A stretch of DNA of 64,000 nt from Acidovorax sp. 210-6 (GTDB lineage Bacteria > Pseudomonadota > Gammaproteobacteria > Burkholderiales > Burkholderiaceae_C): assembly GCF_010020825.1 (NCBI RefSeq), contig NZ_JAACJE010000001.1, positions 124,001-188,000 of the forward strand, in the 5' to 3' direction. The notes beneath the pieces are model-generated. The model ran no database searches and had not been told where the DNA came from. It saw only the letters and a program-made list of their open reading frames with translations. Shown here piece after piece: positions 16,101 through 30,800 of the stretch. A program made the position numbers and the translations under genes. Each line of letters opens with the position of its first letter. Positions within the stretch are counted from its first letter, which is position 1.

Positions 16101-16269
16101 CCGGCGCGGCGCCGGGCAGCGCCACGGTGACCGAGATGGTGGGCAGGTCGATGTCGGGGAAGTTCTGCACCTTCATGGCGTTGAAGGACAGCAGGCCGCC
16201 AAAGCACAGCAGCACAAACAGCATCAGTGCCGGGATGGGGTTCTTGATCGACCAGGTGGATACATTCAT
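13192..16269 (-). CDS. RND efflux pump inner-membrane subunit (AcrB/HAE1 family)
   Basis: The proton-driven permease of a tripartite pump, 1025 residues, the usual length. It starts MNVSTWSIKNPIPALMLFVL (first membrane helix) and has two periplasmic pore domains and 12 helices. In helix 4 VVGILVDDAIVEVENIVRHL carries the conserved Asp-Asp proton-relay residues. The last repeat includes MLMGIATKNSILLVEYAI, where helix 10 carries the Lys. The C-terminus is basic. Substrates cannot be inferred, though the type commonly exports drugs, dyes or solvents. It follows the membrane fusion gene after 12 bases in a TetR-TolC-MFP-RND locus. Confidence 0.95.
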   Translation of the reverse strand: MNVSTWSIKNPIPALMLFVLLCFGGLLSFNAMKVQNFPDIDLPTISVTVALPGAAPAQLENDVARKIENSIATLQGLKHIYTKIQDGGATVTAEFRLEKPTQEALDDVRSAVARVRGDLPGDVRDPIVTKMDLAAQPVLAFTIASSRMDDEALSWFVDNDVAKKLLTVRGVGAVNRVGGVERQVHVALDPLKLQALGTTAADISRQLRQVQQESAGGRTDLGGSEQPVRTLATVQTAQELAGLSLALPDGRAVRLDQLATVRDTFAEPRALALLDGQPVVGFEVARSKGASEVEVGAAVQAALAELRAQHPGLEITEAFNFVAPVQEEYDGSMHLLYEGALLAVLVVWLFLRDARATFVSAVALPLSVIPAFIGMYLLGFSINVITLLALSLVVGILVDDAIVEVENIVRHLRMGKSPYQAAMEAADEIGLAVIATTFTLIAVFLPTAFMSGIAGKFFKQFGWTASLAVFASLVVARLLTPMMAAYLLKPIVGTHHEPRWMGVYLRWAAWCVRHRWTTFAATIAFFIGSLALIPLLPTGFIPPDDNSQTQVYLELPPGATLAQTRAVAEDARQRVMGVAHVKSVYTTIGGGTAGADPFMGSGNTETRKATLTIQLAPRGERPRKQGIEQGIRTALESLPGVRYKVGLGGSGEKFILVLTGDDPQALNSAALAVEKDLRTIPGLGNIASTASLVRTEIAVRPDFARAADLGVTSSAIGETLRIATLGDYDVALPKLNLASRQVPIVVKLQDGARQDLALLERLAVPGSKGPVLLGQVAQLEFSGGPAVVDRYDRARNVNLEVELSGRPLGDVTQEVQQLPSLRNLPPGVRQVTVGDAEVMGELFASFGLAMLTGVLCIYIVLVLLFKDFLHPVTILAALPLSLGGAFVGLLIAQKSFSMPSLIGLIMLMGIATKNSILLVEYAILARREHGLSRFDALMDACHKRARPIIMTTLAMGAGMLPIAIGFGAADPTFRSPMAVAVIGGLITSTFLSLLVIPAVFTGVDDLGQWFGRMARRLRRSPPASH

Positions 16270-16281
16270 GCTGAATGCTCC

Positions 16282-17445
16282 TTATTTGATAGCTGGTTGC
16301 GCTTGATTGGCAGGCGCTGCAGCCGGTTTTTCTTCGGATTTCTCGGGGCCCGAGGCCACGCGCACCAGGTCCCCATCGTTGAGGAAGCCCGCGCCACGCA
16401 CCACCACCGGCGCACCGGCGTCCAGGCCCGAAAGAATCTCTACCCGCTCGCCCGAGCGCCGTCCGGGCTGCACCTTGAGCCGTTGCACGCGCTGGTCTGC
16501 GCCCAGCACGAAGAGGTAGGTGAAGCCCTCACGCACCACCAGCGCATCTTGCGGAACGGTCAGCGCGTCGCTCTGGCCGAGCAGGAATTCACCGCGCGCA
16601 AACATGCCCGCGCGCAGGTCGGGGTGCGCGGGCAGGTCCACATAGACCAGGGCGTTGCGCGTTTGCGGGTCCACCGTGGGGGCCACCATGCGCAGCTGGC
16701 CCTGCACGCTGGCGCCGCTGGCCGCCGTGACCTGGGCTGCCGTGCCGGGACGCAGGCGGCCCAGCTCGGTGGCGGTGACTTCGGCGCGCCATTCCAGCCG
16801 CCCCTTGCGCACCATGCGGAACAGCTCGGTGCCTGCACCCACCACGGCGCCCACGGTGGCGCTGCGGGCGCTGATGACGCCGTGGTCCGGTGCGCGCACC
16901 AGGGTGTGCTGCAAGCGCAGCTGCTGCGCCTGCAGCAAGGCCTGGGCCGCCTCGACCCGGGCCTGCGCGGCCTGGGCGGCAGTGGTGTATTGCTCGATCT
17001 GCTGCGCGCTCAAGGCGCCGCTGGCCTGTAGCGTGCGTGCGCGCTCGGCGTTGGACGCCGCCTCGGCCGCATGGGCCTTGGCCTCCAGCAGGCTGGCGCG
17101 TGCCTGGGCAACGTCGGCCTGCACCATCTCGGCGGCAAAGGTGGCCAGCACCTGCCCGGCCTTGACGCTGTCTCCCACGTTCACGCGCACTTCGGTCAGG
17201 CGCAGGCCGTTGCTCTCGGCGCCGATGCTGGCTTCCTGCCACGCGGCCACATTGCCGTTGGCGGCCAGGCGCTGGGTCATGGCGGTGCGTTGCGGCGGCG
17301 CGGTCTGCACCGTGAGTGCGGGGCGTGGGGACTTGGCGCTGTCTTGCGCATGGGTGGCGCTGGAGTAGGTCCACAGGCCCGCGCTGGCCAGCAGGAAGAC
17401 GGCCAGCGCCAGGGTGGCAGGGTGGGAGGTCAAGGTGTTGCGCAT
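16282..17445 (-). CDS. RND efflux membrane fusion protein (periplasmic adaptor)
   Basis: A 387-residue adaptor linking the inner-membrane pump to the TolC-like channel. An N-terminal signal/anchor (MRNTLTSHPATLALAVFLLA) is followed by the lipoyl half-motif GNVAAWQEASIGAESNGLRL, a coiled-coil hairpin rich in Ala/Gln/Glu (residues about 105-165), the returning lipoyl motif APDHGVISARSATVGAVVG, and beta-barrel and membrane-proximal domains (RVQRLKVQPGRRSGERVEIL). ATG 17445 has GGAG eight bases upstream and is preferred over TTG 17472. The last dozen codons (PAAAPANQAQPAIK) are derived from a dispersed repeat copy. Confidence 0.93.
   Translation of the reverse strand: MRNTLTSHPATLALAVFLLASAGLWTYSSATHAQDSAKSPRPALTVQTAPPQRTAMTQRLAANGNVAAWQEASIGAESNGLRLTEVRVNVGDSVKAGQVLATFAAEMVQADVAQARASLLEAKAHAAEAASNAERARTLQASGALSAQQIEQYTTAAQAAQARVEAAQALLQAQQLRLQHTLVRAPDHGVISARSATVGAVVGAGTELFRMVRKGRLEWRAEVTATELGRLRPGTAAQVTAASGASVQGQLRMVAPTVDPQTRNALVYVDLPAHPDLRAGMFARGEFLLGQSDALTVPQDALVVREGFTYLFVLGADQRVQRLKVQPGRRSGERVEILSGLDAGAPVVVRGAGFLNDGDLVRVASGPEKSEEKPAAAPANQAQPAIK
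16285..16332. repeat. Dispersed repeat, family A, copy 3 (coding the adaptor C-terminus)
   Basis: The sequence TTATTTGATAGCTGGTTGCG then CTTGATTGGCAGGCGCTGCAGCCGGTTTTT follows the family pattern (ATTGATAGCT, GCGCTT, spacer ATTGG, GCGCT, G-rich step, T-run) with several mismatches. On the reverse strand it encodes the final residues and stop of the membrane fusion protein. Confidence 0.5.
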
Positions 17446-17493
17446 GAAGAATGCTCCGTGGATGGGGTGCAACCCAACAAGGGGGTAGGTGCG

Positions 17494-18912
17494 TCAGTGC
17501 TGAGCCGTGGTGATGGCGACGGGGGCCTGCCATCCGCCGCCAGCGGCGCGGTACAGGGCGACCCAGGCGCCAGCGCGCTCGTGGGCCAGCAGTGCCAACG
17601 ACTGGTCGGCCGCCAGGGCGGTGCGACGTGCGTCTTCCAGCTCCAGTTGGCTGGCCAGTCCGGCGCGCCAGCGTGCCTCAGTGGCGCGGAAGGCGGTGCG
17701 GTAGCCCTCGGCGGCGGCCTGGGCGCTGGCCGTGCGGCCCACGCTGGCGTCCAGTCGGACCAGGGCCTGCTCCACCTCGCTCACGGCCAGGCGCACGCGG
17801 GCCCGGTACAGGGCCACAGCTTCGTCGTAGCGGGCGCGGGCAGCGTCTTCCTGCGCCGCGCGGCGGCCACCGTCGAGCAGCGGCAGGCTCAGGGCCAGTG
17901 GGCCGAGGGACCAGGTGTTCAGGTCGGTTTGCAGACCCTGCGTGCGCACCTGGGCGGCACCAATGGTGCCACTGAGCGCCAGGCGTGGGTAGCGCTGGGC
18001 CTGGGCCTGGCCCACGTCGGCGCTGGCGGCGGCCACCTCGCGCTCGGCGGCGTACACGTCGGGGCGTTGGGCAATCACCTGGGCGGGCAGCGTGGCAATG
18101 CGCAGCAGCGCGTCGGTCGGTGGCTGCAGCGGCGTGGGTGCCAGCCGGGTACGCAGCGTGGCTTCATCGCGGCCCGTGAGCGCCACCAGCGCCTTGAGTT
18201 CCAGCGCGCACTGCATGCGCTGCTGGGCGCTGCGCACCACGGCTTCGGCGGCGCTGGCCTGGGCCAGTGCGTGGGTCGCCGGGGCGGTAAAGCCGGCGCG
18301 CTCGCTCTGCTGCGACAGGCGCGCGGTCTGCGCGCGCGAGCGTTCATCGTCCTCGGCAATGGCCTGCTGTTGCAGGCAGGTGCGCAGGCTGCTGTACTGC
18401 AGCGCCACCTCGGCCGCCACGCTCACGCGGGCGGCATGCCATTGCGCCTGTGCGCCCTGCAGCCGCTCGCTGGCGGCGCGCTCGGCGGCGGCATTGCCGC
18501 CCCACAGGTCGATCTCCCATTGCGCCTGCAGGCCTGCCTGGGCTGTGCTGGCCACGGCGCGGACGGACTCGTTGAAGCCCCGGCTGGCGCTGGCTTGCGC
18601 ATCCACCGAGGGTGTCAGCGCGGCGCGGCTGCCCGTCAGTGCAGCACGCGCCTGCACGATGCGCGACTGCGCCTGTGCCAGATCCGGACTCAGCGCTTGT
18701 GCGTCCTGTACCAACTCCACCAGCAGCGGGTCGCCCCACTGTGCCCACCAGTCGCCCAGGGCTTGCACCGATCCCTGGTGCGGCAGCGGGGCCTGCCAGG
18801 CGGTGGGGGTGGGTGCATCCACCTGTGGTGGCGGGGCCTGGGTGGCGCAGGCGGTCAGCACCAGGGGCAGGCAGATCGCCCGCCACAGGCGGCGGGGGGT
18901 GTGGTCAGGCAT
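17494..18912 (-). CDS. Outer-membrane efflux channel lipoprotein (TolC/NodT family)
   Basis: A 472-residue outer-membrane factor. The N-terminus RAICLPLVLTAC is a lipoprotein signal with lipobox LTAC. The body has two OEP repeats rich in long helices: DPLLVELVQDAQALSPDLAQ near residue 60, and in the second half AQAQRYPRLALSGTIGA with LPLLDGGRRAAQEDAARARY. It forms the outer exit duct for the neighbouring MFP and RND proteins. Its start lies within the last eight bases of the tetR gene, so the two are translationally coupled; the adaptor gene follows after 48 bases. Confidence 0.93.
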   Translation of the reverse strand: MPDHTPRRLWRAICLPLVLTACATQAPPPQVDAPTPTAWQAPLPHQGSVQALGDWWAQWGDPLLVELVQDAQALSPDLAQAQSRIVQARAALTGSRAALTPSVDAQASASRGFNESVRAVASTAQAGLQAQWEIDLWGGNAAAERAASERLQGAQAQWHAARVSVAAEVALQYSSLRTCLQQQAIAEDDERSRAQTARLSQQSERAGFTAPATHALAQASAAEAVVRSAQQRMQCALELKALVALTGRDEATLRTRLAPTPLQPPTDALLRIATLPAQVIAQRPDVYAAEREVAAASADVGQAQAQRYPRLALSGTIGAAQVRTQGLQTDLNTWSLGPLALSLPLLDGGRRAAQEDAARARYDEAVALYRARVRLAVSEVEQALVRLDASVGRTASAQAAAEGYRTAFRATEARWRAGLASQLELEDARRTALAADQSLALLAHERAGAWVALYRAAGGGWQAPVAITTAQH

Positions 18913-19621
18913 GGGGCGGGGCCTTTCGAGAGGAAGGTGCTGGGGATGCCAGTGCGCGGCGGCGTTCGGCCTCGCTGTGCACCATGGCCAGGGCGTAGCC
19001 GGTCAGGCGCTGCGCCCAGGCGGAAAGGGCCTGCGGCCGCGTCAGCCGGGGTGCCACGGCCTGCAGCACGTCGTGCTGGGTCCACATCTGCATCACCAGC
19101 GCGGCAATGGAAAAGGTCAGGCGGTGCATGTCGTCGTCCGCCCGGGTCACGCCCAGGTGCTGGCACAGCAGGCGCAGCAGGGCCATGTGTGGGGTGCGGC
19201 ATTCGCGTTCGATCAGCTCGGGCCACACATGCGTGGGGTCCAGCAGCTCGCGCATGTGCAGCCGCAGCGACTGGCGCATCAGGTCGTCGTGGCGCAGCGG
19301 CTCCAGGTAGCTTTCAAAGTAGCGCTGCAGTGCCGTCTCCAGCGCTATGCCCGGTTCGCTGAAGTAGGCAATCGGCTCCTGGCTGCTGCCCAGGGGTTCG
19401 TAGAACGTGGCGGTGTAGAGCGCCGCCTTGTCGCCAAAGTGGTAGGCAATCGCGGCCACGTTGGCGTCGGCCTCCTGGGCAATGGCACGCACCGAGGTGC
19501 GGGCATAGCCCTGCTGCGAAAACAGCCGCAGCGCCGCCAGCAACAGCCGCTCGCGCGTGGGCTCGCTGTCGCTGCGCGGATCGCGTGGTGTGAATGCTTG
19601 GATGGGTTCACGGACGGCCAT
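18905..19621 (-). CDS. TetR-family regulator of the efflux locus (CecR/DUF1956 type)
   Basis: A 238-residue repressor-type protein. The helix-turn-helix is in residues about 20-65: RERLLLAALRLFSQQGYART, then VRAIAQEADANVAAIAYHFG. The C-terminal ligand-binding part (YFESYLEPLR, RELLDPTHVWPELIERE) resembles the DUF1956 domain of CecR/YbiH. It is the first gene of the efflux operon and probably represses it, with relief by a pump substrate. The stop lies inside the tolC-like gene. The 49 bases upstream to the islet contain GTTTGAATTTGG and CAAACAACTGTTTGA, a short palindrome around TCAAACA/TGTTTGA that could be its operator. Confidence 0.9.
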   Translation of the reverse strand: MAVREPIQAFTPRDPRSDSEPTRERLLLAALRLFSQQGYARTSVRAIAQEADANVAAIAYHFGDKAALYTATFYEPLGSSQEPIAYFSEPGIALETALQRYFESYLEPLRHDDLMRQSLRLHMRELLDPTHVWPELIERECRTPHMALLRLLCQHLGVTRADDDMHRLTFSIAALVMQMWTQHDVLQAVAPRLTRPQALSAWAQRLTGYALAMVHSEAERRRALASPAPSSRKAPPHA

Positions 19622-19670: not shown

Positions 19671-20096
19671 TCAACTGACCAAAGTCGCGTTGACCATTGC
19701 AGCGACAGCGATGCCTACGGCGATGCCGGCCGCAATCTCCCATCGGGTGTGGCCTATGCGTTCGCGCAGGGCTTGGTGATCTGCCGTATCGGCTGCCAGC
19801 TTGTTGATGGCGGTGGCGTGCTTCCCGACCTGTTGGCGCAAGCTGTTGGCGTCAAGCATCACGACAAAGGCCAAGGTGACGGCAACGCCGAAGGCGGGTG
19901 TTCCCATGCCATCCTTGAGTGCAATGAGCGCGGCCATGCTGCTGACGATGGCGCTGTGGTTGCTGGGAAACCCTCCATAGCCAATCAGGCCGAACGCGAG
20001 CTTTTTGGCCTTGAAGCTGTTGATGGCGAACTTGGAGACGCCAGCGACGAGCCAGGCAAGAAATGGAGTCAAGGCGTAAGAGAAGTCCAAGATCAC
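19671..20096 (-). CDS. Divergent PAP2 (DUF212) family membrane protein, probable polyprenyl-phosphoribose phosphatase
   Basis: A 141-residue membrane protein of the divergent PAP2/DUF212 family: LTPFLAWLVAGVSKFAI, GGFPSNHSAIVSSMAALI, VMLDANSLRQQVGKHA and C-terminal RIGHTRWEIAAGIAVGIAVA. GTG 20096 overlaps the UbiA stop (GTGA); no ATG fits. The pairing with a UbiA-type decaprenyl-phosphate phosphoribosyltransferase mirrors Rv3807c-Rv3806c of mycobacteria, where the PAP2 protein is the candidate that removes the 5-phosphate from decaprenylphosphoryl-5-phosphoribose. The same role is inferred here. Confidence 0.82.
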   Translation of the reverse strand: MILDFSYALTPFLAWLVAGVSKFAINSFKAKKLAFGLIGYGGFPSNHSAIVSSMAALIALKDGMGTPAFGVAVTLAFVVMLDANSLRQQVGKHATAINKLAADTADHQALRERIGHTRWEIAAGIAVGIAVAAMVNATLVS

Positions 20097-20977
20097 CCCC
20101 GCACCGGCCAAAGCGCCCAACTGCAAGCGGCAATCCAAATCAGTATGGTGAGCAGCAACTGCCAGTCCACGAACAATGCGTCTGTGGGCGACTCTCCCGC
20201 ATCCAGCGCCTCGACCACGAACCAGTAGCGGAACAGGCCGAACAGCACCAACGGCACCGTGATCACCAACTCGGGCTTGGTGGACATCACAAACATGCTG
20301 TAGAAGAGCAGTGCCCCGGTTGCAGACATCTCGGCATAGCGATCCACCAGTGCGACAGTGTATTTTTCGAGCACTTGGCGGCCCTCTGTGCCGCTCTGGC
20401 TGAGCTCCTGGCGCCGCTTGACGGCTGCCAGATACAGTGCCAGACACAGGGTCGTGATGAACATCCAGGAAGACACTGGAACCTCCAGGGCCATGGCTCC
20501 TGCGTAGACGCGCAGGACAAAACCGATGGCGATGGTGAAAATGTCAACCACTGGTTGGTGCTTGAGAACGAAGGTGTACGCCAAATTCAAAGCCAGATAG
20601 GCCGCGATGATCAGCCCTACCTTGGGGGCTGTGAACCAGCCCCATGCCAGTACTGCGTAAAGAATTGCCAGCAGAATCAATGCGCTGGGCAGCGCGACGA
20701 CGCCAGAGGCCAGTGGGCGTGTCTTGGACTTCTTGGGGTGGCGACGATCGCGCTCAATGTCGTGCAGATCATTGACGACATAAGCGGCCGATGATGCGAT
20801 GCAAAACAACAGCATGGCCAGCAGCGCATGACTGACAGCCCTGCCGTCCATGAAGGCACCGGAAAACATCAACGGAGCCAATACAAAGCCGTTTTTGACC
20901 CACTGCTTTGGACGCATGAGCTGGATGAGGCCCATCATGTGCATGCGAGATGAGTGGGTGGTTGCGGTACCATTCAT
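20093..20977 (-). CDS. UbiA-family decaprenyl-phosphate phosphoribosyltransferase (DPPR synthase-like)
   Basis: A 294-residue polytopic prenyltransferase-fold enzyme. LIQLMRPKQWVKNGFVLAPL is the hallmark start of the Rv3806c/NoeC-type group, followed by the first Asp motif YVVNDLHDIERDRRHPKKSK and a second acidic region at VKRRQELSQ. These enzymes transfer phosphoribose from PRPP to polyprenyl phosphate rather than make quinones. ATG 20977 (MNGTATTHSS) has GAGG about ten bases upstream; an upstream in-frame start at 21031 is less likely because it runs into the divergent gtrA gene. Position next to DprE1/E2 homologues supports an arabinose-donor pathway. Confidence 0.87.
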   Translation of the reverse strand: MNGTATTHSSRMHMMGLIQLMRPKQWVKNGFVLAPLMFSGAFMDGRAVSHALLAMLLFCIASSAAYVVNDLHDIERDRRHPKKSKTRPLASGVVALPSALILLAILYAVLAWGWFTAPKVGLIIAAYLALNLAYTFVLKHQPVVDIFTIAIGFVLRVYAGAMALEVPVSSWMFITTLCLALYLAAVKRRQELSQSGTEGRQVLEKYTVALVDRYAEMSATGALLFYSMFVMSTKPELVITVPLVLFGLFRYWFVVEALDAGESPTDALFVDWQLLLTILIWIAACSWALWPVRG

Positions 20978-21006
20978 TGATTTTTGAGCCTCGGCGGTGT
21001 CATCCA

Positions 21007-21420
21007 ATGTTTGCCTTGTCCAAACTGGCAATTAACTATGCCATTTTTGCACTCATTGCAACCGCAGCAAACATCAGCGCTCAGGATCTGCTTATTCGTG
21101 CCTACAGTGGCGAATTTTCCGTTATTGCTTCGGTGGCACTTGGCACGGGAGTCGGGCTTGTCGTTAAGTACATTCTGGACAAGCACTATATCTTTCGTTT
21201 CCAGGCACGCAGCGTCGGGCATGACACCCGGATTTTTGCACTTTACACCGTCATGGGAATGGCTACGACCTTGATTTTCTGGGGTTTTGAATTTGGTTTT
21301 CACCATGTTTTCGAAACCAAAGAAATGCGTTACCTTGGCGGTGTGTTAGGTCTGGCAATCGGCTACTTGGCCAAGTACCACCTCGACAAGCGCTACGTTT
21401 TTCGGGCGGGGCTCGGATGA
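21007..21420 (+). CDS. GtrA family membrane protein
   Basis: A 137-residue protein with four hydrophobic segments and the GtrA pattern: MFALSKLAINYAIFALIATA, VALGTGVGLVVKYILDKHYI and the repeat LGLAIGYLAKYHLDKRYVF. GtrA proteins assist polyprenyl-linked sugar modification and translocation; Rv3789 in M. tuberculosis is a member encoded directly before DprE1, as here. ATG 21007 is chosen over an in-frame upstream start at 20950 that overlaps the divergent UbiA gene. It ends in ATGA overlapping the DprE1 start. Confidence 0.88.
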   Translation: MFALSKLAINYAIFALIATAANISAQDLLIRAYSGEFSVIASVALGTGVGLVVKYILDKHYIFRFQARSVGHDTRIFALYTVMGMATTLIFWGFEFGFHHVFETKEMRYLGGVLGLAIGYLAKYHLDKRYVFRAGLG

Positions 21421-22718
21421 GGCCGGTGGGCTCGTGGGGGCGTTTGAGTGCCGATCCTCACCATGTTGTAGGTCTTTCGGATCTGCACAGTGTCAGGGAT
21501 GTTGTTGCTCAAGGGCCTCATCCAGGTGTGGCCCATGGCATGGGCCGCAGTTATGGTGACGTCTGTCTGAATCCGGGAGGCACGCTTTGGGCCACGACCT
21601 CCCTCGATCATTTCATCGCTTTCGATAGCAGTACCGGGCGTCTCGTGTGCGAGGCCGGAGTCCTGCTCAAGGACATTCAGCGCTTGTTTATTCCTCGTGG
21701 CTGGATTCTTCCCGTCACTCCAGGGACACAATTGGTGACCGTGGGCGGTGCTATTGCGAACGACGTACACGGCAAGAACCACCACGTGGTGGGGTCATTT
21801 GGAGACCATGTCCAAAGTCTCACCATGGCACGTACGGATGGAGAAATCATCCAGTGCGGACCGGACCAGCGCGCAGAGTGGTTCCGCGCAACTGTGGGTG
21901 GGATCGGTCTCACAGGGGTGATCACTCAGGCGGAGATCCAGTTGCGTCCTGTGCGTGGCCCATGGTTGGATACGGAGACCATTCCCTTTGCGGGCCTGGA
22001 TGAGTTTTTTCGGCTTGCGGATGATTCCGAGGCTGCTTGGGAGCACACCGTCTCATGGATTGACTGTCTGGCTCCGGGCCGTGGACGGGGGCTGTTCATG
22101 CGCGGCAATCACACCCATACCGAACACGGCCCGGCGCCCAAGGCACGCAGTTTCGGTGTTCCTGTGGCTCCCCCTGTTTCCATGGTCAACCAGCTGTCCT
22201 CGCGTCCCCTGAATGCAGCGTATTACCACCTCCAGCGGTGGAAGGCGGGGTGCTCTGTCGCTCACCACGAGTCATTTTTCTACCCTCTCGACCATCTGCA
22301 CGATTGGAATCGAATGTACGGCCCCAAGGGTTTTTTCCAGTACCAAAGTGTGGTGCCGCGCGATGTGGGGCAAGACGCAGTTCAAGCCATGCTGAGAGAG
22401 ATATCCCGATCAAGGGATGGCTCGTTTCTCGCCGTGCTCAAGACGTTCGGCAACCGCCAGCCCTTGGGGATGCTGAGTTTCCCGCAACCTGGAGTGACAC
22501 TTGCGCTGGACTTTCCAAACCGGGGCGCGCGCATCCAAAAGCTGTTCGAGCGTCTGGATGCGATCGTCCGTGAGGCGAGAGGGCGTCTGTATCCGGCCAA
22601 AGATGCGCGAATGCCCAGAGATCTTTTCGAGGCTGGTTATCCGCGCTTGGCAGAATTCATGAAATACCGGGATCCGGGGATCAGTTCCGGTTTTTCGCGT
22701 CGCTTGCTGGGGAGTTGA
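21417..22718 (+). CDS. dprE1: Decaprenylphosphoryl-ribose 2-epimerase, FAD oxidase subunit (DprE1-like)
   Basis: A 433-residue VAO/PCMH-type flavoprotein. It oxidises C2 of decaprenylphosphoryl-ribose to the keto intermediate. Diagnostic stretches are AHGMGRSYGDVCLNPGG (FAD site, residues about 38-54), AIANDVHGKNHHVVGSFGDH (the His region equivalent to Mtb His132) and LYPAKDAR near the end, with the catalytic Lys equivalent to Mtb Lys418. Mtb Cys387, target of benzothiazinones, aligns with Ala363 here (PGVTLALDFP), a natural form expected not to bond covalently with them. It overlaps gtrA by ATGA and abuts the DprE2-like gene. Confidence 0.9.
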   Translation: MRPVGSWGRLSADPHHVVGLSDLHSVRDVVAQGPHPGVAHGMGRSYGDVCLNPGGTLWATTSLDHFIAFDSSTGRLVCEAGVLLKDIQRLFIPRGWILPVTPGTQLVTVGGAIANDVHGKNHHVVGSFGDHVQSLTMARTDGEIIQCGPDQRAEWFRATVGGIGLTGVITQAEIQLRPVRGPWLDTETIPFAGLDEFFRLADDSEAAWEHTVSWIDCLAPGRGRGLFMRGNHTHTEHGPAPKARSFGVPVAPPVSMVNQLSSRPLNAAYYHLQRWKAGCSVAHHESFFYPLDHLHDWNRMYGPKGFFQYQSVVPRDVGQDAVQAMLREISRSRDGSFLAVLKTFGNRQPLGMLSFPQPGVTLALDFPNRGARIQKLFERLDAIVREARGRLYPAKDARMPRDLFEAGYPRLAEFMKYRDPGISSGFSRRLLGS

Positions 22719-23471
22719 ATGCAGATAATCAAGAAGATCGTCATCGTTGGCGCCACATCTGCGATTGCGGAACGATGCGCCCGGCGTTGGTTGGAGCAAA
22801 TGCCTATCGATCTGACATTGGTAGGACGCGATGCACAGCGCGTTGAACGGGTGGCGGCGGATCTCAGAGTTCGCAGTCCCCAATCAGAGATTCGGGTTGT
22901 TGAGGCAGACTTTTTGGACCCAGTAGCCATAGATGCGCTGGTCGGAGCAATTGCCCAATCAGGTCACATTGATGTCGCACTGATAGCCCATGGATCGTTG
23001 CCTGAACAAACCGAGTGTCAGTCCGACCTGACATCTTGTCGCGATGCACTGGAAATCAACGGTGTGTCGCCGGTTCTCTTTGCAGAGGCCTTCGCCAAGC
23101 AAATGGAGATGGCCCAACGTGGCACCCTGGCATTGATTGGGTCTGTGGCAGGAGACCGAGGGCGGAAATCCAATTATGTGTATGGCGCCGCCAAGGGGAT
23201 GGTCGCACGTTATGCCCAAGGGCTGCAGCACCGTTTTTCAGGGACGGGTGTCAAGGTCGTGTTGGTAAAGCCTGGCCCGACCGACACCCCCATGACGGCT
23301 CACCTCAAGGCCAAGGGAGCCAGGCTGGCGAAGGTTGACGATGTTGCAAAGGCAATTGTCGATGCGGTCATGGTGGGAAAGCCCATGCTTTACACGCCAG
23401 GAAAATGGGTGGTTATCATGAAAATAATACAACACATCCCCAACAAAATATTCAATAAATTGAATATATAG
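22719..23471 (+). CDS. dprE2: Decaprenylphosphoryl-2-keto-ribose reductase (DprE2-like SDR)
   Basis: A 250-residue short-chain dehydrogenase that starts immediately after the DprE1 stop. The cofactor motif is VGATSAIAERCARRW, with GATSAIA as in DprE2 rather than the usual GxxxGIG. The NAG region is IAHGSLPEQ, the Ser is in LIGSVAGDRG and the catalytic pair is in YVYGAAKGM. The C-terminus has a hydrophobic end (KIIQHIPNKIFNKLNI). The role is NADH-dependent reduction of the 2-keto sugar to decaprenylphosphoryl-arabinose, as in Rv3791. Codon choice shifts toward A/T at the 3' end. Confidence 0.88.
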   Translation: MQIIKKIVIVGATSAIAERCARRWLEQMPIDLTLVGRDAQRVERVAADLRVRSPQSEIRVVEADFLDPVAIDALVGAIAQSGHIDVALIAHGSLPEQTECQSDLTSCRDALEINGVSPVLFAEAFAKQMEMAQRGTLALIGSVAGDRGRKSNYVYGAAKGMVARYAQGLQHRFSGTGVKVVLVKPGPTDTPMTAHLKAKGARLAKVDDVAKAIVDAVMVGKPMLYTPGKWVVIMKIIQHIPNKIFNKLNI

Positions 23472-23581
23472 CGCTGCTCAATTTTAATGGGGTGGCATCT
23501 TGTCTTTTTAATTATCAATATCCTGTGAAATATCGTGCTTCCATTAAAATCAAGGCGTAACCTGATATTTTTAATCGCTTC

Positions 23582-25006
23582 ATGTGTCCAGAATTTCCTC
23601 AGTGGTTCCGCCTGTTTTCTAAAAAAACCTGGTTTGGCGCCAGTTTATGGGTCGTCATTGCGGTCGTATTGTGGTCCAGTGAAGGGCCCTCTATCAATAC
23701 GGGTGACTGGGATCGCGTGACTGTGCCTGCCGGATTTTTGGCGCCCTCTTGGGAACCCATGCAAGCACAGTATTCGCTGGGTGCTTCGGCGCAAATTACC
23801 AATAACAGCAGCATGGGCGTTTTGCTCAGCACCATGGGTTGGATCATACAGCGCGTGGGACAAACTACTTTGCTGACAGCACCCATCTTTTTGGCCTTGG
23901 CATCGGCAATGGCGGTCGGGGTTTTTTTTCTCGCCCACCAAAAGCGGGAACCTTCCGGTCTTCTGGCGTTGAGCATTTTTTTTCTGGCTCTGCTGTGCTA
24001 TGCGGTTTATCTCAAATCATTCTATGGTGAGGCGTTGGTCTTGGCTTTGGTGCCGGTGCTATGTGTTGGCATAAGGCAGTTGGTGTTGGAGAACAAGGCC
24101 TTGCTTTTTACGTTGAGCGCGGTGGTTGTTCTTTATGCAAAGCAGCAAATGATTTTTGTTGCTCCTGTTATTTTGATTCTGTTGCTCAGAAACATGTGGC
24201 TGCATGGGGCGGCCAATCCAAGGCTCTGGGCCTCCTTGTTTTGCATTATTTCTGTTTGTGCCATGCTTTTGAGGGCACATCCTGAAAACAAGGCGCCAAA
24301 TCAATACAACCGCTATTTCAACGGTGTGGGTTGGAGTCTTTTGCAGTCGTCCAACTGGCCTGCACAGCGGTTTGAAGAGCGACACCCATATTTCTACCAG
24401 CACCAACAGCAGCTCAAAACCCTGTTCCCTGACGCATTGCCACATTACAACTACCTGGGGACTTCGTACTTGCCCACAGCCAGCACCTTGTTGGATACGG
24501 CCCGGCGCTCAGACAGCACCGACGCGCAGAAGACGCAGGCGCAGGACCTTTTTGATCAGCTTGTCGTCCAAGGCCGTCCGGATGTCTATCTGTTGACCTT
24601 GGTGCAACACCCGGTGATTTTGTGGCGGCTGGTAAAAAATACCTATCTGACCTTGGTGCGCTCAAACTATGCTGTCGACTACACCCGCTCAGGATTACGT
24701 CTGGCTCCAGCAGTAGCACAGGTTCTGATCAATGCACAAACCCTGCTCGCCCGTATGTTTGGCTGGGTATTTGTCGTGACGCTCCTGATGGCGCTGGTGT
24801 ACCGTAGATCGCTGTTCTCCGCTGCGATTGCTGTATGGATGCTGCTCGCGCCTTTGGCGGTAGTGGCGGGCGACGGGTACTTTGAGTTCGAAAAGCATAT
24901 GACAGCTTTTTTCGTATTTTTACCCTGCGCTGTGATGGCCGTCATATTGAGATCGCCCCAGGCATCCGCTGCCTCACCTTCCGAAAACGGCCTCCCACAA
25001 GGCTAG
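23582..25006 (+). CDS. Polytopic membrane protein, candidate GT-C glycosyltransferase of the arabinose islet
   Basis: A 474-residue protein with about nine hydrophobic segments: one near 18-36, a cluster over about 90-235, and more at about 390-460. A soluble loop spans roughly 240-375 (NRYFNGVGWSLLQSSNWPAQ). The first loop after helix 1 has NTGDWDRVTVPAG, in the place where GT-C enzymes keep an acidic catalytic residue. I know no named family. It directly follows gtrA-dprE1-dprE2, the position held by the arabinosyltransferase aftA in mycobacteria, so use of a polyprenyl-arabinose donor is inferred. Base composition is lower in GC than its neighbours. No ribosome site is seen before ATG 23582. 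Its last 11 codons overlap the end of glnE. Confidence 0.68.
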   Translation: MCPEFPQWFRLFSKKTWFGASLWVVIAVVLWSSEGPSINTGDWDRVTVPAGFLAPSWEPMQAQYSLGASAQITNNSSMGVLLSTMGWIIQRVGQTTLLTAPIFLALASAMAVGVFFLAHQKREPSGLLALSIFFLALLCYAVYLKSFYGEALVLALVPVLCVGIRQLVLENKALLFTLSAVVVLYAKQQMIFVAPVILILLLRNMWLHGAANPRLWASLFCIISVCAMLLRAHPENKAPNQYNRYFNGVGWSLLQSSNWPAQRFEERHPYFYQHQQQLKTLFPDALPHYNYLGTSYLPTASTLLDTARRSDSTDAQKTQAQDLFDQLVVQGRPDVYLLTLVQHPVILWRLVKNTYLTLVRSNYAVDYTRSGLRLAPAVAQVLINAQTLLARMFGWVFVVTLLMALVYRRSLFSAAIAVWMLLAPLAVVAGDGYFEFEKHMTAFFVFLPCAVMAVILRSPQASAASPSENGLPQG

Positions 25007-27727
25007 CACCGCTGCTTGTTCCGTTTGTAGTTCTGCCTGCGGCCGCTGCGTAGGCACTTCGTCCAGCCGCGCACGGTGTTGTACGCGGCGCAGTTCGCGG
25101 TAGGCGCTGGCAGCTGCCTGGCCTACGCCGGGGGGCAGCAGGCCTGCGGCCTCTGCGCGCTGCAGCAGGGCGATGTTGCCCACGTTGTCCACCAGCTCGG
25201 GGTGGGCTGCGGATTGCGACAGCACCAGGTACTGCACGGCGAATTCGGCGTCCACCATGCCGCCGGGGCTGTGCTTGACGTCGAACTGTCCCTCGGGTGC
25301 GGGGTGCGCTGCGCGCACGCGCTCGCGCATGGCGTGGATTTCCTGGCGCAGTGCTGCTGGATCGCGTTCTGCCGTGATCACTGCCTTGCGCACGGCGTCA
25401 AAGCGTTCGCGCAACGGGGGCTGGGTGGCTGCGGCGTCGCTGGGCAGGTCTTCGCTGCCCAGCACAAAGCGGGCGCGTGTCATGGCCTGGTGTTCCCAGG
25501 TCCAGGCGGTGTTGCTGCCGCGCTGTTGCTGGTACTTGGCATAGGCCTCGAAGCTGGTGACCAGCAGGCCGGAGTTGCCGTTGGGGCGGAGTTGGGTATC
25601 GATCTCGAACAGGTCGCCTTCGCCCGTCTTGACGGTGAGCCAGTTGATGAGCTTGCGCACGAAGGCGGCGTAGATCTCGGGTGCGCGTTCGTCGTCATCG
25701 TCGAACACGAACACGATATCGAGGTCGCTGCCGTAGCCCAGCTCTTTGCCGCCGAGCTTGCCGTAGCCAATGATGCCGAACTGCGGCGTGTCGCGGTGGC
25801 GTTGCTTGAGGCGGCTCCAGCACCATTGGGCGGTGATGCGCAGCACGCTGTCGGCCAGCAGCGAGAGGTCGTCGGCCACCTGTTCCACGGTGATGCGGCC
25901 CTCCACGTCGCGCGCCAGGGTGCGGAAGGTTTCCGCATGGTGCGCGCGGCGCAGCAGGTTGAGCAGGGCCTCGTCGTCGTCTTCCTGGGTCGAGCGCAGG
26001 GAGGCCAGGCGCAGTTGCAGGTCACGCTCGAAGTCGGCGGCCACAAAGCGTTCCGACAGCAACTGGCTGCCGGCCAGCTCGTCGATGACGCCGGGGTGCT
26101 GCAGCAGGTAGCGTGCGGGCCAGCGGGCGGCGCCCAGCAGGTGCAGCAGTTGTTCGTGTACGGCGGGGCGCTCCAGCAGCAGGGCCAGGTAGCTTTCGCG
26201 GCGCATCAGTGGCTCCAGCCAGTTGACCAGGCGCACGGCGGCTTCTTCGCCCACGCGGCCTTCGCGCACCCATTGGGCCGTGCGCTGCACCAGGCGCAGC
26301 AATCGCCCCCGGGCCTCTTCGCGCAGAGCGGCCACGCGGGGGTGGTTGCGCCACTCGGCCACGCGTTCGTGCAGCAGGGGGGGGAGCTGTTCGAGCAGGC
26401 TTTCCAGCTCGGGTGTGCTGGCTGCACCGTTGGCGGAGCCGCCGTTGCAGCCATTGCATTTCTTGGGTTCTTCGGCGCCCAGCAGCGTGTCGAACTCCTG
26501 CGCCACCAGTTCGCGGTGCAGGTTCAGTTCGTGCAGGAATGCAGGGCAGTCGGGGTAACCCATGGTCTGGGCGATCCAGGTCAGGTCGTCATCGCGCGTG
26601 GGCAGGACATGGGTCTGCTGGTCGTCCAGGTACTGGATGCGGTGCTCCACCTGGCGCAGGAAGGTGTAGGCGCGCGCCAGGGCCTGTGCAGACTGCGGTG
26701 GCATGAGGCCTGCGGTCGCCAGGCGTTGCAAGGCGTCCAGCGTGGGGCGGCGGCGCAGCTCTGGGAACTGCCCGCCGCGCACCACCTGCAACAGTTGCAC
26801 GGTGAACTCGATTTCGCGGATGCCCCCGCGCGAGAGTTTGACGTCGTTGGCGCGCTCGGGGTGGCCTGCGCTGCGCTTGGTGGCGTGTTCGCGGATCTGG
26901 CGGTGCAGGCTGCGCAGGGACTCGAACACGTTGTAGTCCAGGTAGCGCCGGAACACAAAGGGCAGCACCACACCGCGCAAGGCCTGCACGGCCGTACCGG
27001 CAATGCTGTCGCTGGGCGCAACCACGCGGCTCTTGAGCCAGGCAAAGCGTTCCCATTCGCGGCCTTGCACCTGCAGGTATTCCTCCAGCGCTGCCAGCGA
27101 TACGGCGGGCGGCCCCGAGTTGCCGTTGGGCCGCAGCGCCAGGTCCATGCGGAAGACGCAGCCATGCTCGGTGGTGTCGCCCACCGTGGTGTGGATGAGC
27201 CGGGCCACGCGGGCAAAGTATTCGGGGTTGGAGATGCGCCCGCGCCCGTCGGGGGTGCCGCTGGTTTCGCCGTCGTGCTCGTACACGTAGATCAGGTCGA
27301 TGTCACTGGACACGTTGAGTTCGCGTGCGCCCAGCTTGCCCATGCCGATGATCCAGAACTCGACCGGCTGGCCTTCGGGGCCGCAGGGGTGGCCGTGGCG
27401 GCTGTCCAGTTCGGCGCGGGCCTGGCGGCAGGCCTGGTCGAGCGCGATCTCTGCCAGCTCGGTCGTTGCCTGGGTGATGGTGGCCAGCGGCGCCTGGGCG
27501 CAGCAGTCCAGCTCGATGAGGCGCGCCATGACCAGTTGGCGCAGGATGCGCAGTGCTGCGGGCAGGGGCTGGCCGCGCTCCTGCAGCGCCGCCAATGTCT
27601 GCAGCATGCTGGCGCGCACCGGTGCGCCCGGCGGCAGCAGGGACCATTCGTCGGCATAGCGGCGCTGCAGGCGTTGGTAAAAGCGCGAGTGCAGGGCCGG
27701 GTCGAGGGTGGGGGCGGCGGTGGTCAC
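24974..27727 (-). CDS. glnE: Bifunctional glutamine synthetase adenylyltransferase/deadenylase GlnE
   Basis: It controls glutamine synthetase by adding or removing AMP on a Tyr, in response to PII and glutamine. Two nucleotidyltransferase domains are visible: IIGMGKLGARELNVSSDIDL in the N-terminal half and GIIGYGKLGGKELGYGSDLD in the C-terminal half, each with the G-S-D-x-D metal motif, followed by GlnD-like helical domains (SRGGIREIEF, SPGGMVDAEF). The frame is open to 27826, but homology-like sequence begins near TAAPTLDPALHSRFYQRLQR, so GTG 27727 is suggested (917 residues); an earlier start is possible. A small insertion KKCNGCNGG lies in the central linker. Confidence 0.92.
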   Translation of the reverse strand: MTTAAPTLDPALHSRFYQRLQRRYADEWSLLPPGAPVRASMLQTLAALQERGQPLPAALRILRQLVMARLIELDCCAQAPLATITQATTELAEIALDQACRQARAELDSRHGHPCGPEGQPVEFWIIGMGKLGARELNVSSDIDLIYVYEHDGETSGTPDGRGRISNPEYFARVARLIHTTVGDTTEHGCVFRMDLALRPNGNSGPPAVSLAALEEYLQVQGREWERFAWLKSRVVAPSDSIAGTAVQALRGVVLPFVFRRYLDYNVFESLRSLHRQIREHATKRSAGHPERANDVKLSRGGIREIEFTVQLLQVVRGGQFPELRRRPTLDALQRLATAGLMPPQSAQALARAYTFLRQVEHRIQYLDDQQTHVLPTRDDDLTWIAQTMGYPDCPAFLHELNLHRELVAQEFDTLLGAEEPKKCNGCNGGSANGAASTPELESLLEQLPPLLHERVAEWRNHPRVAALREEARGRLLRLVQRTAQWVREGRVGEEAAVRLVNWLEPLMRRESYLALLLERPAVHEQLLHLLGAARWPARYLLQHPGVIDELAGSQLLSERFVAADFERDLQLRLASLRSTQEDDDEALLNLLRRAHHAETFRTLARDVEGRITVEQVADDLSLLADSVLRITAQWCWSRLKQRHRDTPQFGIIGYGKLGGKELGYGSDLDIVFVFDDDDERAPEIYAAFVRKLINWLTVKTGEGDLFEIDTQLRPNGNSGLLVTSFEAYAKYQQQRGSNTAWTWEHQAMTRARFVLGSEDLPSDAAATQPPLRERFDAVRKAVITAERDPAALRQEIHAMRERVRAAHPAPEGQFDVKHSPGGMVDAEFAVQYLVLSQSAAHPELVDNVGNIALLQRAEAAGLLPPGVGQAAASAYRELRRVQHRARLDEVPTQRPQAELQTEQAAVLALWEAVFGR

Positions 27728-27815
27728 AGTGGTGGGCGACAAGACGGCTGGAAAACAAGTGCCAGGGAGAAGGAACCGGCACCGGGGGTGCGGGTCATAA
27801 TCCCGGCCACATCCA

Positions 27816-30800
27816 ATGCCTGCCATGAACGTGCCTGTTGCCCATCCGACGCGCCTGCTCCGAACGATGGCATGGCTCGCCCGTTGGTCGCTGGGGCTGT
27901 TGCTGGGTGTGGCATTGCTGATGGCGGTGGCCTGGGGGGCGCTGCATGGCTGGATTGTGCCGCGTATCGGAAATTACCGTGCGCAGCTGCAAGAGCAGGC
28001 CACGCAGGTGCTGGGGGTACCGGTGCGACTGGGCACGGTGACGGCGCGCACCGAAGGCTTGATCCCGACTGTGGAGCTCGGAGATGTGGCCTTGCTCGAC
28101 CCCCAGGGGCGTGAGGCACTGCGCCTGCCGCGGGTGGTGCTGGCGCTCTCGCCCCGGTCGCTGTGGAAATTCGGTTTCGAGCAGCTGTACATCGACAGCC
28201 CCGAGCTGGACATCCGGCGCACGCCCGAAGGGCGCATCCTGCTGGCCGGGTTGGAGTTGCCCGACCAGGGGCCGAACGACGGGGCGGCCGCCGACTGGTT
28301 TTTCTCGCAACCGGAACTCGTCATCCGCGGAGGTACGCTGCGCTGGACCGATGAGCTGCGCGGCGCGCCGCCCTTGGCGCTGCGGGATGTGGACATCGTG
28401 GTGCGCAACGGCAACTGGCGCCACAGCCTGCGCATCGACGCTACGCCGCCGCCCGAATGGGGCGATCGATTCACGCTGGTGGGGCGGTTCCGCCAGCCAC
28501 TGCTGAGCACCCACAGCGGGCGCTGGCAGGACTGGAGTGGGCAGTTGTACGCCCAGTTTGCGCGGGTCGATGTCTCGCGCCTGCACCGCCATGTCGACCT
28601 GGGCATTGCCGTGGCACAGGGGCGCGGGGCGGTGCGTGCCTGGGTGGATGTCGAGCGCGGCCAGTGGATGGGCGGCACTGTGGACCTGGCGCTGGCCGAT
28701 GTGAACACCACCCTGGCCGAGACACTCCAGCCCCTGGTGCTGCCCTCGGTGCAGGGCCGCCTGGGGGCGCGGCGTCTGGCGGGGGGCATGGAGGTTTCGA
28801 CCCAGGACCTGCAGTTCACCGCCGACGACGGGCTGCGCTGGCCCGGTGGCAATGCCCGCATCAAGCACACCGAGGCGCGCAAGGGCCACCCCGAGCAGGG
28901 GGAGTTCCAGGCCGACCGGCTGGACCTGGCCCTGCTGGCGCGCATCGCCGACCGCCTGCCACTGGACGCCCAGGCACACCAGGCACTGCGCACCTACGTG
29001 CCCCAGGGCCTGGTGGAAGCCATCGAAGCGCGCTGGCAGGGGCCGCTGACCGCCCCCCGCAGCTACCAGGCACGTGGGCGTGTGTCGGGCCTGTCGCTGG
29101 CGGGCAGGCCGCAGCCCACCGAGGTGAATGGTGCGCAGGCCCAGGCGATCGGGTTGCGTGGCGCGACCATGGACTTCGACCTGACGCAGCAGGGCGGCTC
29201 GGCCACGGTGTCCATGGAGCAGGGTGCCCTGGTGTTGCCGGGGGTGTTTGAAGAGCCAGTGCTGCCGCTGGACCAGTTCCACGCCAGCGTGCAATGGCAG
29301 ATCGACGGCGAGCGCATCGGCCTGCAGATCAGCGACGCACGCTTTGCCAATGCCGATGCCCAGGGCGTGGCCCGCGCCAGTTGGCAGACCAGCGATCCGG
29401 CGCGTTCGGGCAGCCGCTCTCGCTTTCCGGGGGTGTTGGACCTCAGCGGCACACTCGAACGCGCCGACGGTACGCGCGTGCACCGCTACCTGCCACTGTC
29501 CATCCCGCCCGATGCACGCCACTATGTGCGCGACGCGGTGCTGGCAGGCAATGCCAGCGATGTGCAGTTCCGCGTGCGCGGCGACCTGTACGACATGCCC
29601 TTCAACGACCCGCGCCAGGGCGAGTTTCGCATCGCGGCCAAGGTGCGCGATGTGACCTTTGGTTTCGTGCCGCCGCGCCTGCAGCCCGCAGGCGAGTCGC
29701 CCTGGCCCGTGCTGGTGCAGTTGGGCGGGGAGCTGATCTTTGAGCGCTCGTCCATGCGCGTGCGCGACGCCAGCGGGCGCTTTGAGGGCCGCCCCGGCCT
29801 GCAGGCCAGCAAGGTGCAGGCCGAGATTCCCGACCTGGCCCACACCGTGGTGGGCGTGAGCGCCGATGCGCGCGGTCCCCTGCCTGAACTGCTGGCGCTG
29901 ATGAAGGCCTCACCCCTGTCGGCCATGACCGGCCACGCCCTGGACGATGCCCAGGGCAGTGGCAATGCCGACCTTCGGCTGAAGCTGGAGCTGCCGATCA
30001 GCGATATGCACAAGTCGCGCGTGCAGGGAGCGCTCACCCTGGCAGGCAACGACCTGCGCATCACGCCCGACACCCCGGCGCTGGCGCGCACGCGTGGTAC
30101 GGTGCAGTTCAGTGAGACCGGCTTTGCCCTTGCGGGCGTGCAGGCCCGTGCGCTGGGGGGCGATGTGCGCCTGGAAGGCGGCATGCGCCCGCCCCCCGCA
30201 GGCCCTGCGGCGCTGGAGGCGCCCCTGCTGCAATTGCGCGCCCAGGGCACCGCCAGTGCCGAAGGGCTGCGCCAGGCACGCGAGCTCGGCGTACTGGCCC
30301 AACTGGCCCAGAAGGCCACGGGAACCACCCCCTACAGCCTGGGGTTTGCCGTGCGCAGGGGTGTGCCCGAGCTGCAGGTCAGCACCAGCCTGCAAGGCAT
30401 GGCGCTGGCCTTGCCCGCACCGCTGGGCAAGGCGGCCGAGTCGGCCTTGCCGGTGCGCTTCGAGAACCAGGTCACACGCGCGTCGCTGGCGCCTGCGCCC
30501 AACGGCGCGGCGGTGCCCTTGCAGGACCGACTGGTGTTGCGTGTGGAAGGCGTGGGCGCGGTGGACTACTTGCGTGACTGGGTGGGCGGAACGTCCCAGG
30601 TGGTCAATGGCTCCGTCACGCTCGGCCTGGGCTCTCAGGAGGGAACCCCCACGCCGGAGCGCGGCGTGGCCGCCAACCTCCAGCTGGGCGATGTGGATGT
30701 GGATACCTGGCAGGCATTGCTGGCGGGCACCCCGGCGCAGGGCGGAAAGGACGCCGCCAGCACGCTGCAGGACTATCTGCCCAACGTGCTGGCCCTGCGT

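Follow-up and report, generated by a model that had tools for sequence, protein, structure and literature searches.

A six-gene islet in Acidovorax sp. 210-6 with a predicted route to extracytoplasmic D-arabinofuranosylation

Gene content of the islet

The window analyzed here is a 64,000-nucleotide stretch of the betaproteobacterium Acidovorax sp. 210-6 (contig NZ_JAACJE010000001.1, positions 124,001 to 188,000 of the forward strand), and positions are those of the window unless a locus is named. At 19671-25006 it carries an islet of six genes, which we are inclined to read as a self-contained extracytoplasmic D-arabinofuranosylation module. The genes form two divergent arms. The minus strand encodes a DUF212 (divergent PAP2) membrane protein of 141 amino acids (19671-20096), the proposed 5'-phosphatase of polyprenyl-phospho-(5-phosphoribose), and a UbiA-family polyprenyl-phosphate phosphoribosyltransferase (PPPRS) of 294 amino acids (20093-20977). 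The plus strand encodes a small membrane protein of the GtrA family (21007-21420; 137 amino acids), the proposed exporter (flippase) of lipid-linked arabinose; a DprE1-like flavin adenine dinucleotide (FAD) oxidase (21417-22718; 433 amino acids); a DprE2-like short-chain reductase (22719-23471; 250 amino acids); and a multi-spanning membrane protein, here termed MP (23582-25006; 474 amino acids), the proposed polyprenyl-phosphate-D-arabinose-dependent glycosyltransferase.

Inspection of the open reading frames confirmed all six genes within these limits. The DUF212 gene starts with a GTG that lies within the GTGA overlap with the UbiA stop codon, gtrA and dprE1 overlap by 4 bp, and dprE2 begins directly after the dprE1 stop. 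A gap of 110 bp separates dprE2 from the MP gene, whose 3' end overlaps by 33 bp the 3' end of a convergent gene outside the islet that reads as glnE (24974-27826, minus strand). The six genes had been placed here by a preliminary description of this DNA, and Pfam and NCBIfam scans back its family names for all of them except MP. At the level of sequence, chance resemblance is excluded by the E-values and by conservation.

Enzymes of the predicted donor pathway

UbiA was recognized by Pfam (PF01040, 77.9 bits; cut-off 34.2) and by the NCBIfam model for decaprenyl-phosphate phosphoribosyltransferase, NF008978 (215 bits, above its cut-off of 207); its best NCBIfam family, NF008977, has the same name and scored 216 bits, below the cut-off of 234. 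The comparison with the decaprenyl-phosphate phosphoribosyltransferase in PDB entry 8j8j gave E=3.3e-39, with the aspartate-rich motif NDxxDxExDRxHP aligned. Judged by its sequence, UbiA is the phosphoribosyltransferase expected of a decaprenylphosphoryl-arabinose-type donor pathway. DprE1 matched FAD_binding_4 (64.8 bits; cut-off 26.4) and, over residues 6-418, the DprE1 chains of the PDB (E=5.6e-74), with the motifs VGGAIAxDxHGKNHH and AKD(S/A)R aligned. DprE2 matched adh_short (95.3 bits; cut-off 26.6), and the YxxxK motif can be read in its sequence; its best NCBIfam family is a generic short-chain dehydrogenase/reductase (SDR) model, NF005489 (248.5 bits; cut-off 267).

For comparison, we used 60 stretches around DprE1 genes (DprE1 loci), including the window. 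These came from the DprE1 genomes listed in searches of the family and the order, three more genomes of the genus, and the genome G560; several are cut by contig ends. Of 57 DprE1 loci, 54 also encode DprE2 within the stretch, and two of the remaining three are truncated by a contig end. Since UbiA and DprE1 match solved mycobacterial enzymes, it is very likely that the islet makes a polyprenyl-phosphate D-arabinofuranose donor.

In 16 of the 60 loci (L050, L051, L103, L113-L116, L118, L120, and others), DprE1, mostly together with DprE2, has no UbiA within ~6.5 kb. Some of these loci are cut by contig ends; the rest need a phosphoribosyltransferase encoded elsewhere or use another donor.

DUF212 as a candidate phosphatase

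The DUF212 protein scored 111.4 bits with PF02681, well above the gathering cut-off of 26.5. Its sequence contains PSNHS and GHTRWE motifs, which we take to be similar to those of PAP2 proteins. UbiA is encoded near DprE1 in 44 of the 60 stretches and is fused to a HAD domain in 22 of them; the other 22 have no HAD. DUF212 was found in none of the 22 HAD-UbiA loci vs. 8 of the 22 HAD-less ones (Fisher p=0.0036, uncorrected for kinship), and all eight share the layout seen in the window, with DUF212-UbiA divergent from gtrA-dprE1-dprE2. In Citrobacter, removal of the 5-phosphate has been assigned to the HAD domain, and the whole protein makes farnesyl-phosphate ribofuranose in vitro, according to passages of PMC11127046. 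Because of this role of HAD in Citrobacter, the mutual exclusion of the two, and the assignment of DUF212 to divergent PAP2, DUF212 makes a good candidate for this step, and its failure to co-occur with HAD-UbiA supports a function as a phosphatase. Loci of the DUF212 type are not a single clade in the DprE1 tree: under midpoint rooting, their common ancestor comprises 20 of 59 leaves, with support of 0.586. Swaps of the phosphatase between loci are plausible, although poorly resolved in this tree. DUF212 goes unmentioned among the literature matches listed, the query being so broad that this is no clean negative.

GtrA and alternative exporters

GtrA matched PF04138 (31.3 bits; cut-off 26.1) and, more strongly, NF037976 (188.8 bits; cut-off 50). 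The role of GtrA in mycobacteria is disputed, with an exporter and an anchor both having been proposed (PMC7389260, in part). Close relatives of the islet's GtrA are encoded near DprE1 in 17 of the 60 loci. A PF03706-like (MprF-flippase-like) gene lies within the stretch in 21 of the 60 (for example, L048 8443-9333, L106 10080-10952, and L062 396-1283), and in 8 of these 21 it is no more than 1.3 kb from dprE1. All seven such proteins that were scanned with Pfam were confirmed as PF03706. The two genes never occur together: no locus of the 60 has both a close GtrA relative and a PF03706-like gene (Fisher p=0.00018, uncorrected for kinship). PF03706-like proteins may thus take the place of GtrA in the export of lipid-linked pentofuranose, which we treat as a lead and not as a rule.

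A strict mutual exclusion of GtrA and PF03706 was considered and dropped, as it is true only for the GtrA subfamily of the window. In L098, a distant gene of the GtrA family (PF04138, 56.5 bits) immediately precedes the PF03706 gene, and one gene of L054 reads like GtrA by eye.

MP, a rare membrane protein that accompanies DprE1

The last gene of the islet encodes a protein for which the Pfam scan returned no family. The only named relative in NCBIfam is WsfD (NF051875), at 56.5 bits against a curated cut-off of 80; four MP homologs scored 39.7, 39.2, and 25.7 bits or, in the case of the last, a partial sequence, had no hit. Nine hydrophobic segments were obtained by a simple hydropathy count, which is not meant as a topology. 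A Gly-Asp pair follows the first hydrophobic segment in every homolog that covers this part, and further conserved motifs are KSxYxE-like, NRxxNGxGW, and DGxxEFEKHM.

MP is rare. It was found in 2 of 200 genomes of the family, 3 of 399 of the order, and, by a profile search, 1 of 398 of the phylum; the Acidovorax sp. 210-6 genome is included in each count and is the only one in the last. Two tight peptide patterns, scanned against ~85,000 genomes, yielded five confirmed loci, and another genome (G597) was found in passing. In total, seven genomes were found to encode MP (G000, G141, where the homolog is intact, G597, G277, G560, G588, and G589). DprE1 is encoded in all seven, against a background of 25 of 200 genomes in the family (E<=1e-30) and 33 of 300 in the order (E<=1e-60), own genome included. 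In five of the seven (G000, G141, G597, G277, and G560), MP is in one block with UbiA and/or DprE1, and in G588 and G589 DprE1 is encoded elsewhere in the genome, away from MP, which in these two lies among genes read as polysaccharide genes, in a 21-kb stretch with neither UbiA nor DprE1. Among G000, G141, and G597, MP is 82-85% conserved; the proteins of G277 and G560 are only ~30% identical to that of the window. The gene order is MP, HAD-UbiA, gtrA, dprE1, dprE2 in G277, and MP, UbiA, a PF03706 protein, and dprE1 at the contig end in G560. Because MP co-occurs with DprE1 and shares a block with the donor genes even at ~30% identity, it is probably the transferase that uses the arabinose donor.

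Proposed pathway and comparison with known systems

We infer the following route. UbiA would transfer 5-phosphoribose from phosphoribosyl pyrophosphate (PRPP) to undecaprenyl phosphate, and DUF212 would remove the 5-phosphate. Oxidation at C2 by DprE1 and reduction at C2 by DprE2 would then give undecaprenyl-phosphate D-arabinofuranose, which GtrA would bring to the periplasmic face. There MP, as a member of a rare, uncharacterized WsfD-like family, would transfer the arabinose to an acceptor. As the preliminary description had proposed, one block encodes all the predicted steps from PRPP to polyprenyl-phosphate D-arabinofuranose, and with them an exporter and a candidate transferase. The decaprenyl carrier that it implied is replaced here by undecaprenyl phosphate, the carrier argued for in Gram-negatives (PMC11127046, in part). 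For the transfer to a surface acceptor that it proposed, MP is the candidate enzyme, a possible GT-C protein whose sequence support consists of the sub-cut-off WsfD match and the co-occurrence with DprE1.

We class the islet with the known three-component pentofuranose systems, as a variant of them and not as a system of a new kind; what is new in it is above all DUF212 and MP. The published scheme, as outlined in PMC11127046, leads from PRPP to a polyprenyl-phosphate pentofuranose, which is exported and transferred outside, with DprE1/E2 serving for arabinose. The Citrobacter youngae O1/O2 systems have in common with the islet a UbiA-type synthase, dephosphorylation, an optional epimerase, an exporter, and an extracytoplasmic membrane transferase. 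However, in Citrobacter HAD is fused to UbiA, whereas the islet has a separate DUF212 and no HAD hit nearby; the exporter is MATE/EmrE-like there and of the GtrA family here; and the transferase is GT136 there and, as the candidate, MP here. Pseudomonas systems with yet another phosphatase are treated as relatives in the same source (PMC11127046). The system of P. paraeruginosa (PSPA7_6245-6251 and TfpW), described in parts of PMC12369383, shares with the islet the donor sugar predicted for it, the Gram-negative host, and location on a genomic island. It differs in that tfpW sits with pilA, whereas the candidate transferase of the islet sits with the donor genes and the organism's own pilA sits with a PglL-type ligase. 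D-arabinan is also known in the Gram-negative Devosia (PMC8707391, in part). Our literature search found nothing that joins arabinofuranose with Comamonadaceae.

In mycobacteria, the corresponding genes occur in two blocks, Rv3789-Rv3790-Rv3791-Rv3792 and Rv3807c-Rv3806c, an order taken here as general background. In the islet, they are combined into one divergent unit for which an undecaprenyl carrier is expected. UbiA and DprE1 are homologous to their mycobacterial counterparts (Rv3806c and Rv3790), and the gtrA-dprE1-dprE2 order is like that of Rv3789, Rv3790, and Rv3791. The parallel with Rv3789-Rv3792 drawn in the preliminary description is sound by family for the first three genes; MP occupies the position of AftA. 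Similarly, DUF212 resembles Rv3807c in position, and their equivalence as families is at best remote, Rv3807c being called a member of the PAP2 superfamily in PMC3229680 (in part). Structures of AftA and Emb exist (PMC11127046, in part), and MP has no detectable relation to AftA, Emb, or any PDB chain. WsfD is like MP in family resemblance and unlike it in the score, which is below the cut-off, and in the donor, which is glucose and not arabinose.

Three further assignments, taken jointly, are tentative: that MP founds a rare family of D-arabinofuranose transferases on a WsfD-like hexosyltransferase scaffold, that DUF212 is a 5-phosphatase for polyprenyl-phospho-phosphoribose, and that PF03706 proteins are pentofuranose exporters in loci without a GtrA of the window type. 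The islet offers testable assignments for a domain of unknown function and for an unclassified transferase family, both in a small, expressible gene set.

Acceptor and alternative explanations

The acceptor may well be a surface polysaccharide, lipid-linked or finished, on which the arabinose would form a side branch. We favor such an acceptor because relatives of MP sit in polysaccharide loci. In L066 and L068, they lie among polysaccharide genes (named from their translations), and behind the G277 islet (L063 6632-11000) there are acyltransferase-, glycosyltransferase-, EpsI-, and exosortase-like genes, assigned by eye. In Paenibacillus alvei, the interpretation given to WsfD itself is that it takes lipid-carried glucose and adds it as a branch to the S-layer glycan (PMC2943079, in part). 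The Acidovorax sp. 210-6 genome has one Poly_export (Wza-type) gene, in a locus that reads as a Wzx/Wzy-type polysaccharide locus and is a possible source of the acceptor.

Several observations weigh against our reading of the islet. The scores of DprE1 (NF053785, 353.9 bits) and DprE2 (NF053786, 165.2 bits) are below the equivalog cut-offs of 500 and 250, so their exact substrates are predictions and a different epimerized pentose is possible. The phosphatase argument is incomplete, with 14 of the 44 UbiA loci having neither DUF212 nor HAD nearby, and five of the eight DUF212 loci come from one genus, which makes the counts non-independent. For MP, neither a sequence search nor a profile search (at E<=10) detected a PDB chain, and the AlphaFold2 model, built on a six-sequence alignment, had a mean predicted local distance difference test score of 39.9 and was unusable, so that a GT-C fold for MP is conjectural. 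The MP profile gave nothing significant against 26 of the 40 other membrane-protein groups near DprE1 loci, the 26 including some unrelated transporters kept as controls, and the MP stretches in L066 and L068 (21 kb each) contain neither UbiA nor DprE1. In sister genomes, the donor module adjoins pilin genes, which favors a pilin as the acceptor. We also know of no D-arabinose measurement in this organism, a point that no search made here was able to settle.

Three other explanations were considered. That the substrate of the DprE1/E2-like pair is some other lipid-linked pentose, or its end product a different one, so that the sugar is not D-arabinose, appears very improbable: the sub-cut-off scores would allow it, and the xylofuranose of Citrobacter O2 has one SDR epimerase assigned to it (PMC11127046), but DprE2 accompanies DprE1 at nearly every locus, the DprE1 motifs align with those of the solved enzyme, and in the same source homologs of DprE1/E2 belong to candidate Araf-glycan systems and the ORF13 homolog to Xylf ones. 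It is also improbable, if less so, that the donor pathway is real and MP is not its transferase but a polymerase, a flippase, or a passenger, the transferase being encoded elsewhere in the genome. In P. paraeruginosa, the TfpW gene does lie apart from the donor genes (PMC12369383, in part), many unrelated multi-spanning proteins are found at other DprE1 loci, and MP has no fold evidence and a WsfD match below cut-off; on the other hand, it would have to be explained why, in G277 and G560, relatives of MP with ~30% identity adjoin the donor genes, and why all seven MP genomes encode DprE1.

The third explanation keeps the donor pathway and makes MP a pilin arabinosyltransferase, with type IV pilin as the acceptor, as for TfpW in P. 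paraeruginosa, where pilins with D-Araf are documented (PMC12369383, in part). We regard it as unlikely, although it has the most to recommend it among the three. In G610, of the same genus, the immediate neighbors of the islet are pilA and genes for a GT87 protein, for another multi-spanning protein, and for a PAP2 protein. In G609, a gap of 70 bp separates the islet from a gene for a PglL-type ligase, and pilA genes follow ~15 kb farther along this contig. In G154 and G028, the distance between pilA and gtrA-dprE1-dprE2 is ~3 kb and includes the gene for a multi-spanning protein, a relative of which (32-33% identity over >600 residues) adjoins pilA in G609. Multi-spanning proteins adjoin pilA near the donor module in all four of these genomes, resembling TfpW in position. 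In Acidovorax sp. 210-6, 26 kb separate pilA from the islet, and the genes after pilA encode a TfpX/Z-like protein (194.1 bits; cut-off 200) and a PglL/Wzy_C ligase; no GT-C-like gene adjoins this pilA as tfpW does in P. paraeruginosa. Moreover, pilA alleles and the transferases of the pilin cassette differ among G000, G141, and G597, while MP stays 82-85% conserved, and three distant relatives of MP lie in or beside polysaccharide loci. A scan of 63 stretches detected prepilin motifs in 7, among them the organism's own pilA locus, which had been chosen for its pilA.

Two observations concern the neighborhoods of these candidate acceptors. The pilin cassette, which extends from a metallo-beta-lactamase-fold-like gene to moaC, varies in five genomes of the genus (L061 8783-11890, L194, L195, L196, and L197) in its pilA alleles, in having one or two pilins, and in encoding PglL-type or other multi-spanning transferases. 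Beside the organism's own polysaccharide genes (L199 15135-15824) lies a long run of alternating Val-Leu/Val-Gln codons, a simple DNA repeat.

Acquisition and distribution

On its left, the islet is flanked by a gene for a TetR-type regulator (18905-19621, minus strand) of an RND efflux operon (13192-18912), family names that come from reading the sequences. The GC content of the islet genes is 0.49-0.59, compared with ~0.70 for this operon and 0.68 for glnE. A glnE gene was matched in all 26 genomes of the genus, and in the nearest congener by this gene (G605, 99% identical) tetR and glnE are ~105 bp apart and the islet is absent; G605 has no DprE1 at E<=1e-30. The islet occupies the same tetR/glnE site in G141 and G597. 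The simplest reading of these patterns is that the islet was probably acquired in one piece at the site between tetR and glnE, loss in G605 being the alternative.

Within the genus, 5 of 26 genomes encode DprE1, own genome included. Scanning viral contigs with DprE1 gave no relative. DprE1 proteins from two genomes of other families, G378 and G388, are 71% and 70% identical to that of the window, which is above most of those from its own family. Mycobacterial-type modules for lipid-linked arabinose are common in Burkholderiales, and their phosphatase, exporter, and transferase parts vary from locus to locus, which helps in interpreting uncharacterized surface glycans and the pilus decorations involved in recognition by phages and the immune system. 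The location varies as well: two congeners have the donor module at pilin or PglL genes (L162 2573-11217 and L163 6273-11807) and not at glnE.

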